Positions 6,801 through 18,800 of a DNA stretch of 64,000 bases are shown in pieces. Source of the stretch: Chamaelirium japonicum (lineage: Eukaryota; Streptophyta; Magnoliopsida; Liliales; Melanthiaceae); the NCBI GenBank assembly GCA_947650365.1, contig OX393549.1, positions 33,341,126 through 33,405,125 of the forward strand. The letters are read 5' to 3'. The position numbers and the translations under genes are program-made. Within the stretch, counting starts at the first letter, position 1; every line of letters starts with the position of its first letter. The notes under the pieces are model-generated. The model worked only from the letters and a program-made list of their open reading frames with translations, searched no databases and was not told where the DNA came from.

Positions 6801-9800
6801 ATATATATATATATATATATATATATATATATATATATATATATATATATATATATATATATATGGGGTGGGATCCGTTGACAACCCAAAATGGGAGGTA
6901 AATTTACCTCCCACTTATAACTTGCCATAATCGTTGGTTAGAGGTTTCCGAATTTGCTGATTTTTTGTGAGGATGATCAACATGGCATGTTGATCATCCT
7001 CACAAAAAATCAGCAAATTCTGAAACTTATAAGGACGTCAAATGTGTTATTCAAATTAACGGTTCAAATAGACGGTTCAGAAATATTTGATTCAATCGGC
7101 GTCCTTAGAAGTTTCAGATTTTGTTGATTTTTTGTGAGGATGATCACTATGGCAAGTTGATCATCCTCACAAAAAATCAACAAAATCTGAAACTTCTAAG
7201 GGTGCCGATTGAATCAAACGTTTCTGAACCGTCTATTTGAACCGTTAATTTGAATAACACATTTGACGCCCTTATAAGTTTTCGAATTTGCTGATTTTTT
7301 GTGAGGATGATCAACTTGCCATGTTGATCATCCTCACAAAAAATCAGCAAATTCGGAAACCTCTATCCACCGATTGAATCAAGTTTAAAATGGGAGGTAA
7401 ATTTACCTCCCATTTTGGGTTGTCAACGGATCCCAGCCCTATATATATATATATATATATATATATATATATATATATATATATATATATATATATATAT
7501 ATATATGAGGGTAGGGAGCCTACATCTGAGGTGTAGCATCGTTGTTGCACCTCTCGTGTGTTTACCTCCCTAGAAGTTTTAGAATTTGATGATTTTTGGT
7601 GGGTGTGTTGTCTAGGGTAAGGTGATCATCCTCATCAAAAATCAAGAAATTCTAAAACTTCTAGGGTCATCAAGTGATCTAGGAAAAATTAACGGTTACA
7701 GTGAACAATCGATAAAGTTTTGAACATTTGATGACCCTAAAAGTTTTAGAATATACTGATCTTTTGTGAGGATGATCACCTTACCCTAGAGAACACATCC
7801 ACCAAAAACCACCAAATTCTAAAACTTCTAGGATGGTAAACAACGCCTGAGGTGCAACAATAATGATGCACCTCAGGTCTAGGCTCCCTTTTCCCTATAT
7901 ATATATATATATATATATATATATATATATATATATATATATATATATATATATATATATATATATATATATATATATATATATAATACGGGGTATGAGC
8001 TGACAGCTCATTTGGGCATTTGGGCTGTCAGCTCACAGCCCTCCGATTAAATCCATCTGACCGTCCGATTATTAAAGAAAAAAACCAGCTGTAATTCCAT
8101 CTCTATCGGTCTCTCTCTTGACAGCCCACCTGCCCGACCTCCAGCTGCCACGACCACCGGCGAAGATGGCTGCTGCCACGACCACCGGCAGCCCCCTTTC
8201 TGGCCCACTCCCCTTCCGGCGCCGATCCAGCCCCAACCTCCCCCTTCCCTCTCTCTCGTGAGCGGCAGCGGCAGCCCCGTCAGGGGCCAGGCCGGAGACA
8301 GGCGCAGGGGGCGGCGGACGGGGGCCGGGCCGGAGGGGACGGGGTCTGGGCCGAAGGCGGGCGCCGGAGACAGGCGCAGGGGGCGCAGGGCCGGAGGCGG
8401 ACGGGGGCCGGGCCGGAGGCGGACGGGGGCCGGGTCGGAGGCGGGCGCCGGAGACAGGCGCTGTGGGCGCAGGGGCCGGGGGCGTAGGGCCTGTGGGTGC
8501 AAAAATTGTACTGGACCAGATCAAAGCAGCATGGGCCCGCGCAACGGCCCAAATGGGTAAGCCCGCCTGGGCTCACATGGGCCCACTCTACGAGGCTCGC
8601 AGATCAAGCCCTACCCCTTATTGGGCCCGAACAACGGCCCAATAAGGGCCCAGCAAGGAGGCCCAGAACCAGTGCCACGTCATCAGTGCCACGTCATCAC
8701 TGCCATATCGGGCACGTGCCGACGCTATAAAAGACCCCCAAGGCATCCAGGAAAGGGGTTGGTCATTCGATCAGAGGAAGAGAGGATCCAGAGCCAGAGC
8801 CAGAGCCCTTCATTCTCCTCTTCTCGTTTCTCTTCTAATTGCCCCGTGCAAACACATTGTAAGAAGCTTCTCTCGGCCTGTCGAGAGAACGCTCAACCCT
8901 TTATACTCAAATTATAGTGAAGATCAGGTGGCACCTCTCGCCCGGAGACGTAGGTCGTAAGACCGAACTCCGTCACCAACCCTTGTGTCATCGCCCTTTA
9001 CTCTCTCTATCTATTCTCACATCTCTCTAACTCTACAAACAATCCAATTCAATCAAGGCTGTGGGGGCGGGATTCTCGATCAAGGCGGCTCGGAAATTTC
9101 CCCCCACAATCTTTGGCGCCGTCTGTGGGATATCGTTAGAGGTCTTACCCACACCTCTACCGACTCCTATTCAACTTGTGGTGACGAGCCACAAGTCCTC
9201 CTCTAAATCAACCTCAACGCCTTCATCACGCCGACATCAACACGCTCGATGGTGAAGGCCAGCACCAACCCACCAAAGGCGGGTGCTAAACGAATAAACG
9301 ATATGCTGATCGAAGAAGAACAAGAAGTCTCGGTTGCAACCAACCGAAGAAATGTTCGGGAGCGGCTGGGGCCGCAAGGCAGCCATCCAGAAGGGCACAG
9401 CGATCGGCGAGACCCGTCATCCCCGAGGCGTCGATCTGGCAAAGAGCACGCCACCCAAGGGGACAACGATCTAACTACATACCAAATTTCGGCTGCTGAT
9501 TTCCAGCTGTTGAACCTTCTCAAGAGGAACGCAGCCCTCGAACAAGAGAGGGACTCCCTAAAGAAGGTAGCTGAAAGAGCGGGGGTTGTGGCCCACAACT
9601 CTCCAACTGCTGATGAAGACCAACCAAGGACTCGCCCAGCCATGATTCATCATCTTGAAGAATCACATGTGCCACGTATCGAGAGGCGTCAAGTATCTAC
9701 ACAAGCATCAAGGCAAGCGGTGTGGGATCGCCTCGACGTCAACGGTGCGCCCAACTATCACGGAGAAGGATCACCTCAGTCAACAGGGTCCACTAGACAT

Positions 9801-15800: not shown

Positions 15801-18800
15801 GGAAAACGCACTGCCTTTGCGGAAACACCCCCTTGCAAAACCGAGACTTTTTGGCTTGCACCAAAAGGGTCTCGGTAACCACTCGGTATGCTCTCGGTAC
15901 CCACTCGGTATGCACTCGGTACCCTCTCGGTATCCACTCGGTCGGAAAACGCACTGTTTTTTCGGAAACACCCCCTCGCAAAACCGAGACTTTTTGGCTC
16001 GCGCCAAAAAGGGTCTCGGCATCGGCGGAAGAAGGCCCTGCTAATACGAACCGCGGCACCGACAACCCTCGCCAACTGCGCCAGGATCCTAAAGCGTTTG
16101 CACCATGGAATCCCAGCCGACCCAGGGGGTCCTGACCCGACTGGGAGGGGGTAACTGTGGGTGCAAAAATTGTACTGGACCAGATCAAAGCAGCATGGGC
16201 CCGCGCAACGGCCCAAATGGGTAAGCCCGCCTGGGCTCACATGGGCCCACTCTACGAGGCTCGCAGATCAAGCCCTACCCCTTATTGGGCCCGAACAACG
16301 GCCCAATAAGGGCCCAGCAAGGAGGCCCAGAACCAGTGCCACGTCATCAGTGCCACGTCATCACTGCCATATCGGGCACGTGCCGACGCTATAAAAGGAC
16401 CCCCAAGGCATCCAGGAAAGAGGTTGGTCATTCGATCAGAGGAAGAGAGGATCCAGAGCCAGAGCCAGAGCCCTTCATTCTCCTCTTCTCGTTTCTCTTC
16501 TAATTGCCCCGTGCAAACACATTGTAAGAAGCTTCTCTCGGCCTGTCGAGAGAACGCTCAACCCTTTATACTCAAATTATAGTGAAGATCAGGTGGCACC
16601 TCTCGCCCGGAGACGTAGGTCGTAAGACCGAACTCCGTCACCAACCCTTGTGTCATCGCCCTTTACTCTCTCTATCTATTCTCACATCTCTCTAACTCTA
16701 CAAACAATCCAATTCAATCAAGGCTGTGGGGGCGGGATTCTCAATCAAGGCGGCTCGGAAATTTCCCCCCACAGGGCCGGGGGCGCAGGGCCGGCGGCCG
16801 GGCCGGAGGTAGACGCCGGAGGGGAGTGCGGTCGGAGGGGGACGGGGTCTGCCGGAGGGAGGGCGGTCGGAGGGGGACGGGGTCGCGCCGGAGGGCTCGG
16901 TGGTTCGGGCTGGGCAGAGAGAGAGAGAGAGAGAGAGAGAGAGAGAGAGAGAGAGAGAGAGAGAGGGAGAGAGGGTCGGTGTTAACAGCTGTGTGTTGTT
17001 TTTTTTTTTTTTTTTTAAGGGACGGTCCGATCATTGGGATCGGATGGCTGTCGGTGACAGCTCAAATGAGCATTTAGGCTGGCAGCTCACCTCCCGTTTT
17101 CTCTCTCTCTCTCTCTATATATATATATATGTGTGTGTGTGTGTGTGTGTGTGCACGCGCGCGCACACTAGAAAAACAACCCTCATACAATTCAGTCTCT
17201 AATATGTTTTGTTCATCGGATATATGGCGTGTGAAGATAGGTGGATTCATAGACATGCCATTGGTGTTCATTGTTATTAAACGACTCGAAAGGAACAGTA
17301 GTCGAATCACTCTTACTCTGTAATGAACTAGTGCTCTTCTTTGTCAAAATCCCAAGAAGCTGAAACACCTACAGTAGTGACATGCTGAAAAGTAGTTGCT
17401 CACTTGCTTGTATATGAATATGACTTGGAAATCCACAATAAACTGATATGGGATAGAACAATAGAGAATATGTTGTCTTGTATGAACTAAATTGTCTGCC
17501 TATACTTGTTCTGAGAACATATTACTTTATTGTTAATTTTTTTTTCCATCATAGTATTTATTGGTACGAACTTTATATTTCATGGGTATGATCTTTTTTT
17601 TGCTCTCAATAAATTTTGCTGTATTATTACGTGCAGGCACGAAGTTTTCAAAGAGTAAACTTGACTCGCTTAAAAATTTTGAAGATACAAAAGAAGTTGA
17701 TGTAAGTTTAGTCAACTTAACTGGAACTTTGGCGTAAACGCATTTATTTCATTTCATTACGCTAGTTATAAATTTTTTTATCAATGAATGTAATCTTAAT
17801 CAATCTTGTTCATTGCCATGCAAAAGTCATGAGACAGTGTAATATCTGTCCTTTAAGGTTTTTACACTGTATGGCAATGTTTGTTTCATTATTTCTAACA
17901 TATGTTTTCGATTATCATGGAAGTTGATTTAAAAGATACGGAAAATGTTGCAATGACAATGGAGAGAGCCTGTAACATGAATAAATGGAGAATAAGGATC
18001 CATAAAGCCGTCCCAAATAGATGGGACAAGTCTTGATGGCTATGGTTTATCTTCTTTTTAGTTTCTTCTATGTTAGTGCAAAATCCAAATTCTCTCTGTG
18101 TGCCTTAACATGGAAACTTGAGTTGAAAAATTGGGCAATTTACTTTTTAATGTGATTGACTGATAGAATTATGGGCCAACAACCAGAATTAGATTACAAT
18201 TCAAGTAAGAGGTAGTGGTGAATCCTTAAGCCAGAGTTCAACATTCATGTCAAAGAGGGGAGGGAAAAAGGTAAATAGAAATTTTCATTTATCTTATTTA
18301 TTCATTTGGAATGCCTTTTCCTCTCATATATAGACCATACCAACTTACACGGTTACACCTTTAGGAAACTAGCCTTAGTTTATATCATTCATTTAAGTAA
18401 ATTACTCTTGACCCTTAAAACTGAACTCATGACCGAAGGAAACAAAAGAAACACAAACCGTATCAATTGGTGCTTCTTGTGTCATGAAGGCACTGCCACA
18501 CCATACCAATTGCCATCAAGCTTTGGTATGTTCTGCAGAGTCTTCAGTTGCCAATATTGTTGGCCTGAAGAGCCAATTCGGGCGATGCTCGAATTCGTAT
18601 CTTGTGCAAAGCTGAGTTACCTGAATCCTAGAGGGAGGGGGTGTTCTAAGAGATGATGGCCAAAAGTTTTAATTTATTATTCTAGTTCGATTGCGTTTAT
18701 AAGCCCATGCGGAGAATGATAGGTTATTGTGGCTTTTAAGACTAATACCATACCTTTATCACGTGGGAATTTGAGTCCATAAAGGATTTGGATGCCCAAT

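Follow-up and report, generated by a model that had tools for sequence, protein, structure and literature searches.

Terminal-repeat retrotransposons with GAG (TR-GAG), reportedly described by Chaparro et al. 2015, share several traits with the element analysed here, a long terminal repeat (LTR) retrotransposon in a 64,000-nucleotide stretch of Chamaelirium japonicum DNA (contig OX393549.1, positions 33,341,126 to 33,405,125; hereafter the window). Common to both are an LTR pair with a target duplication, Gag only, recent insertion and many copies. The window element differs in that it carries a set of long tandem arrays and has a variable slot, which in some copies of its family holds host-gene fragments.

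Gag-only elements with arrays are themselves on record. In Lathyrus sativus, the GAG-only Ogre (Tat) elements FabTR-54/57 carry tandem arrays from which satellites arise, according to the available passages of PMC7004042. FabTR-54/57 and the window element both have gag near tandem arrays, arrays downstream of gag and no pol; the FabTR-54/57 units form long satellites, whereas three of ours, of 107, 67 and 119 base pairs (bp), give no sign of it, and host-gene capture, seen in our family, goes unmentioned in those passages. An earlier note on this stretch pointed to the combination of Gag only with five arrays in one recently moved element; its Tat/Ogre-like anatomy stands, and GAG-only Ogre elements with arrays are published (PMC7004042). 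Retand elements have LTRs of 315-1,194 bp and zero to three arrays, and in the sections available all clusters but two encode RNase H and integrase and 61 of 63 contain antisense TRP28 (PMC11963269). Our element resembles them in LTR size and in having tandem repeats within the 3' portion of its interior, a trait of Tat/Ogre/Retand elements, but it has no pol and five arrays, and TRP28 (PF04195) was not found in the open reading frames (ORFs) scanned.

Host-gene fragments within LTR elements also have precedents. In the accessible portions of these papers, maize Bs1 carries segments of three host genes (PMC13317346), a maize survey reports gene fragments in LTR elements, none with more than one nuclear gene (PMC2774510), and rice and sorghum LTR elements contain them too (PMC3726574). 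Our family likewise has host-gene fragments between LTRs; what sets it apart is that different fragments occupy the same slot of sister Gag-only copies. Titles and abstract openings, with most subscription journals outside reach, revealed no published family of Gag-only elements in which one slot holds differing host fragments. How LTR elements take up host mRNA and whether Tat-type tandem repeats have any role are open questions, and the origin and function of the repeats in Retand elements are said in the text available of PMC11963269 to remain unknown. A high-copy family with one slot provides natural replicates within one genome, so that junctions, donors, strand and the timing of capture become comparable.

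A shared skeleton around a variable slot

We consider it likely that the window element is a recent copy of an abundant, Gag-only, non-autonomous family in which a shared skeleton surrounds a variable slot, and that pieces of host genes entered the slot by what we infer to be template switching. The assembly (1.52 Gb in 3253 contigs), from which all relatives were drawn, contains 594 exact junctions between an LTR end and the primer binding site (PBS). Fifteen regions picked from the 40 best LTR matches yield 13 relatives (the region of L022 lay on the wrong side of its LTR match, and L020 and L021 count as one element). All of this describes an abundant family of Gag-only LTR elements, presumably non-autonomous, built on one skeleton: LTR, PBS, gag, arrays of 107, 67 and 119 bp, array of 143 bp, polypurine tract and LTR, around a single variable slot. 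The first three arrays stand in common order in 12 of the 13 relatives, and all 13 contain the 143-bp unit, which is 121 bp long in L017, as well as the 136-bp stretch preceding the 3' LTR, with best identities of 95.6-98.5% for this stretch.

The window copy is young. Its LTRs, with termini TG..CA, are two transitions and one 1-base indel apart, which at the conventional substitution rate of 1.3e-8 per site per year, assumed here, places the insertion about 0.13 million years ago. Across 13 LTR pairs (the window copy and 12 relatives) the Kimura two-parameter (K2P) divergence is 0-0.0082, and 11 pairs are flanked by a perfect 5-bp duplication, L014 and L015 being the exceptions. Because GGGCC is frequent in the left flank (10 times in 294 bp), the window copy's own GGGCC duplication is weak evidence alone. 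Near-identical LTRs, GGGCC on both sides and the duplications at 11 of 13 pairs together confirm the earlier note's view of an intact young LTR element. In L014 the 136-bp stretch is also found directly upstream of the 5' LTR (positions 49-184 in element orientation), without a 5-bp duplication, and this locus may be two elements that lie in tandem or have recombined.

Gag leads directly into the arrays in 7 of the 13 relatives, and most of gag is gone in the other 6. Five of these, L009-L013, have a common breakpoint at window position 9630/9631, fused to the 107-bp array, and an LTR K2P divergence of 0-0.0065. This gag-less sublineage inserted recently and, since gag is mostly gone while the LTRs are near-identical, it apparently moves without a Gag of its own. 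The layout suggests a three-step parasitism on one LTR family, from a putative pol-bearing partner through Gag-only to gag-less copies. L015 lacks gag beyond 61 bp as well as the 107- and 67-bp arrays and spacer 1; at its positions 1175-2467, inverted and direct pieces of the 119-bp array lie side by side.

The slot, between the 119- and 143-bp arrays, measures 0.9-2.4 kb and differs in content among copies. Only L012 among the 13 relatives covers the window slot over its length (0.99, at about 86% identity); the L014 and L023 slots are mutually shared over 0.95-0.97 of their length at about 92%, and the L018 slot has at most 0.10 in common with any other copy. Nearest-neighbour relations differ between segments: L013 is closest to L017 in the LTR, to L009 in the 5' part of gag and to L018 in spacer 1, and L014 and L023, for all the likeness of their slots, are not mutual closest in any of these three segments. 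Parts of the window slot module are common elsewhere in the genome. Five other loci fetched with window positions 14700-15090 have family parts around that piece, and no donor gene for it was seen among 179 candidate places, 40 of them scored.

Host-gene fragments in the slot

The slots of the 13 relatives gave 105 ORFs of at least 110 amino acids, which were scanned against Pfam at E 0.01, with about one chance match expected; 19 families matched, many of them overlapping (five are EF-hand models), and none is a pol family. All ORFs of the window element other than gag, 81 in number, served as a control; their best matches were at 1.9e-4 (DUF3915) and 0.041. Given the chance expectation and this control, we treat slot matches weaker than about 1e-5 as leads only. 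Two of the 13 relatives hold clear host-gene fragments, each scoring above the Pfam cut-off: an EF-hand piece in L016 (E 2e-24), which matches calmodulin in the PDB, and a glycosyltransferase family 2 piece in L017 (E 1.9e-17), which matches cellulose synthase there. The L017 piece presumably belongs to CSLC. Thus a host fragment between the LTRs, the hallmark of gene-capturing LTR retrotransposons, is present in L016 and L017 and not in the window copy, whose slot contains no recognisable host gene. Below the cut-off lie a dioxygenase N-terminus (4.3e-5) and DUF4100 (1.2e-4) in L015, the start of a pectin-methylesterase inhibitor (2.9e-4) in L017, a peroxidase (7.2e-4) in L020, a 3'-5' exonuclease (0.0016; 2.7e-5 by phmmer against the PDB) in L019, and an NF-Y/histone match (4.1e-4) not assigned to a copy.

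The L017 piece tells us most about how such fragments arrive. Its 192 amino acids occur uninterrupted at six genomic places (one, L059, with a stop), each flanked by this family's 119-bp array at one end and, at the other, by its 143-bp array, the 136-bp stretch and an LTR, whereas four other loci match it only in separate pieces, with breaks near residues 110 and 147. In the one gene locus fetched (L060, on contig C4), the exons are 96.9, 97.6 and 95.9% identical to the L017 piece, and the element lacks the gene's GT..AG introns, which are about 83 bp and 1.9 kb long. At the 5' end the gene apparently has another intron, at a point where the L017 piece runs on. Since the introns are missing exactly at the gene's splice sites, what was captured was spliced mRNA, with template switching as the most likely route. 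L059, more diverged and reaching further in the 3' direction, has a different slot context; it is possibly an older form, or else the product of a second capture.

The EF-hand piece of L016 is found at more places: 28 near-full-length places match it at 88-100% identity, none with an internal stop, one more place matches in two pieces with a stop, and identity then drops to 75%. Position ties five of the 28 to the family (L016 itself, one on contig C50 beside an LTR match, and three of the four in the stretch for which junctions were listed), and one of the remainder may be the donor gene. Among four copies, the ratio of nonsynonymous to synonymous divergence (dN/dS) is 0.45-0.92 in five of six pairs and undefined in one (Fisher p 0.25-0.81), so that the EF-hand cargo looks indistinguishable from neutral, with no constraint shown.

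How the slot may be filled

We propose that a pol-bearing relative supplies reverse transcriptase and integrase in trans, and that during minus-strand synthesis in a shared particle the polymerase would jump between co-packaged RNAs at repeats. Such jumps would alter array copy number and swap slot contents, and an occasional jump to a host mRNA and back would insert a spliced fragment.

Several points weigh against this reading. A pol-bearing partner sharing the LTR or gag was not found in a genome search with PF13456, in which 150 of 15586 candidates were scored; a Tat-type pol locus, L038, may or may not be related to the Gag-only family. The mosaicism is read off nearest neighbours. For the EF-hand piece no direct donor turned up, the match L070 being only 75% identical with dS of 0.73-0.76. 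Of the five captures that can be recognised, three (L015, L019 and L020) fall below the Pfam cut-off and, because the control gave a match at 1.9e-4, may be chance; the exonuclease-like piece of L019 is moreover antisense, for which a jump to a sense mRNA offers no simple explanation. Eight of the 13 relatives and the window copy have no assigned host gene.

Does the family do more than pick up fragments now and then? Purine-rich tracts (30-base windows, at least 93% purine) occur on the sense strand of the slot in 14 of 14 copies and on the antisense strand in none. One could tentatively, and with some doubt, see the family as a gene-shuffling vehicle with a dedicated slot, in which flanking arrays and sense purine tracts would serve as landing sites for jumps of the reverse transcriptase, fragments of spliced host mRNA would be taken up repeatedly at a single site, exchanged among genomes packaged together and spread (as the 28 places of the EF-hand piece might illustrate), and selection would act on Gag while the cargo stayed near neutral.

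Alternatively, the slot might be filled by events at the DNA level (nested DNA transposons, Pack-type elements or repair filler) and not by mRNA capture. The weakly matched antisense piece of L019 would fit, a CACTA-type insertion does occur in one copy, within gag, and splicing was examined for one piece only; but that cellulose-synthase-like piece is intronless exactly at splice sites, and all six of its uninterrupted copies sit in the same slot. We therefore regard filling at the DNA level as unlikely.

Tandem arrays and the satellite-nursery question

The earlier note had read the element as a satellite nursery with five unrelated arrays. Tandem Repeats Finder (TRF) returned its periods of 107, 119 and 158 bp and corrected the other two, from 68 to 67 and from 142 to 143 bp. 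No matches were found among the five arrays (blastn, E 1e-3), in agreement with their being unrelated, but a weak kinship qualifies this: the end of spacer 1 resembles part of the 143-bp unit (score 41 against 20.9 +/- 3.5 when shuffled). The two spacers are themselves duplicates that have diverged (59 against 22.8 +/- 3.6 when shuffled).

Mean monomer identities, first within and then between copies, are 0.936 and 0.937 for the 107-bp array, 0.919 and 0.912 for the 67-bp array, 0.870 and 0.855 for the 119-bp array and 0.882 and 0.903 for the 143-bp array. Because array order is conserved and identity within copies is close to that between them, we take the 107-, 67- and 119-bp arrays to be inherited. 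Nearest monomers nonetheless come from the same copy more often than label shuffling predicts (87 of 137 against 11 for the 67-bp unit, 31 of 87 against 6 for the 119-bp unit, 15 of 82 against 6 for the 107-bp unit), so local duplication keeps altering array copy number. In the window copy the 158-bp unit is repeated 3.4 times and the 143-bp unit 3.1 times; the 13 relatives reach about 2 copies at most of the former and have about 2 of the latter. We considered whether these longer arrays are private to the window copy and rejected the idea: the slot module fetched six loci, L062-L066 and the window copy itself, and similar lengths recur in L062, L065 and L066 (158-bp copies: 3.4 in L062, 2.3 in L063, 1.9 in L064, 2.9 in L065 and 2.7 in L066; 143-bp copies: 3.1 in L065). 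The arrays are inherited parts of the family whose length fluctuates among copies and subfamilies.

A nursery would create arrays in the element that then expand elsewhere as satellites. For such a role speak the differences in array length among copies, since the window copy and a few more exceed the 13 relatives in the length of the 158- and 143-bp arrays, as well as the precedent of satellites derived from Ogre arrays, GAG-only elements included, documented in the passages at hand of PMC7004042. The genomic counts point the other way. Exact 22-mers occur 4993 times for the 107-bp unit, 6343 for the 67-bp unit and 3101 for the 119-bp unit, a ratio of 1 : 1.27 : 0.62 against 1 : 1.48 : 0.80 in 14 sampled elements (61, 90 and 49 matches). 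The genomic ratios being below those of the sampled elements, the 67- and 119-bp units are not in excess relative to the 107-bp unit, although this test is blind to an expansion common to all three. The first 100 matches of the 107-bp unit, in the first 31.6 Mb of contig C1, form 30 clusters of 1-8 matches, the longest 771 bp, and the 67- and 119-bp clusters span about 1.25 kb at most (first 100 places each, read by eye). Within the same stretch of C1, 13 of 15 exact PBS junctions have a 107-bp cluster at most 4 kb downstream, and 13 of the 30 clusters have an exact junction upstream; the remaining 17 might stem from copies whose junction has mutated.

We thus find the nursery quite improbable. 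What survives of it is that array lengths do change within the family; that the window copy generated five satellites is not supported, the 107-, 67- and 119-bp arrays being inherited in 12 of 13 relatives, and the search for long arrays outside the element that the earlier note had suggested revealed none for these three units in the counts and first 100 places.

Gag, and the search for pol and a partner

The window gag runs from stop to stop at 9207-10901, with a Met at 9249 and a Pfam Retrotrans_gag match at E 1.6e-8. Among the stop-to-stop ORFs that overlap the element and are 60 amino acids or longer, 82 in total and all scanned against Pfam at E 0.1, it is the sole retroelement domain; they contain no pol domain, which is what the earlier note had named as a refutation. 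The other matches were DUF3915 (1.9e-4), which probably reflects sequence composition, Atrophin-1 (0.041), Fig1 (0.057), TFIIE-A_C (0.072) and DUF7622 (0.076). TRP28 was found neither in these 82 ORFs (E up to 0.1) nor in the 105 slot ORFs of the 13 relatives (E up to 0.01). Because only 147-185 bp separate gag from the 107-bp array in the seven gag-bearing relatives, there is no room for pol between them.

The gag frame ends within one codon of a common position in seven of eight copies, L018 being interrupted earlier. By a counting method, dN/dS is 0.18-0.46 in the 15 pairs formed by six uninterrupted ORFs (the interrupted L018 and L020/L021 excluded), and the pooled ratio of nonsynonymous to synonymous differences per site (pN/pS) is 0.29; gag bears the signature of purifying selection. 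In its C-terminal Cys/His motif (window 10770-10820), one cysteine kept in six other copies is lost in the window copy, whose own Gag may be impaired by this change. That the window copy is a decayed autonomous element, with pol deleted by chance and the arrays as remnants, would account for the absent pol and for gag abutting the arrays at once, but it is highly improbable and largely refuted by the narrow gag-array gap in seven relatives, the lack of any pol family in the 105 slot ORFs, the shared end of the gag frame, a gag dN/dS below 1 and the near-identical LTRs.

An autonomous relative with the same LTR, the other check that had been suggested, was likewise not found among the PF13456 candidates scored, whose matches comprise LINE-type (long interspersed nuclear element) loci and, on small contigs, about 100 Tat-type places that are nearly identical. 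These 100 or so score identically with the profile, and each has one in-frame TAG. L038 (946-2418) carries a Tat-type RNase H, an archaeal-type RNase H and an integrase zinc finger, and part of its flank reads N. A 15.1-kb LTR pair on contig C10, considered as an autonomous element, was rejected: it belongs to the family, and a 6.3-kb insertion interrupts its gag. The insertion (L021, 1046-7373 in element orientation; C10:43860781-43875894) has the ends CACTACAAGAAA..TTTCTTGTAGTG beside an AAG repeat and, judged by these ends, is a CACTA-type DNA transposon.

Feature coordinates and other observations in the window

Table 1. Parts of the window copy, in window coordinates
Feature	Position	Strand	Basis
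Target site duplication, left, GGGCC	8487..8491	.	sequence
5' LTR, 617 bp	8492..9108	+	
Putative PBS TGGCGCCGTCTGTGGGA	9114..9130	+	sequence; 594 exact genomic LTR-end/PBS junctions
gag ORF (Retrotrans_gag)	9249..10904	+	Pfam; only retroelement domain found
107-bp tandem array, 5.9 copies	11057..11687	+	TRF
67-bp tandem array, 6.5 copies	11779..12212	+	TRF
Spacer 1, diverged duplicate of spacer 2; present in 12/13 relatives	12213..12585	+	
119-bp tandem array, 10.9 copies	12586..13873	+	TRF
Spacer 2, start of variable slot	13874..14102	+	
158-bp tandem array, 3.4 copies	14160..14692	+	TRF
Variable-slot module, no recognisable gene in window copy	14698..15572	+	
Three purine-rich tracts, about 15077-15155, 15227-15283 and 15359-15413	15077..15413	+ (sense)	
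143-bp tandem array, 3.1 copies	15573..16019	+	TRF
Conserved 136-bp stretch preceding 3' LTR; ends in putative polypurine tract 16143-16155	16020..16155	+	
3' LTR, 618 bp	16156..16773	+	
Target site duplication, right, GGGCC	16774..16778	.	sequence

Elsewhere in the window, positions 42975-44897 contain a long open frame of 641 codons, which we take to resemble a chloroplast MurE-like ligase. A separate tandem array lies outside the element at 55343-55685, with a 44/88-bp unit in about 4 to 8 copies.

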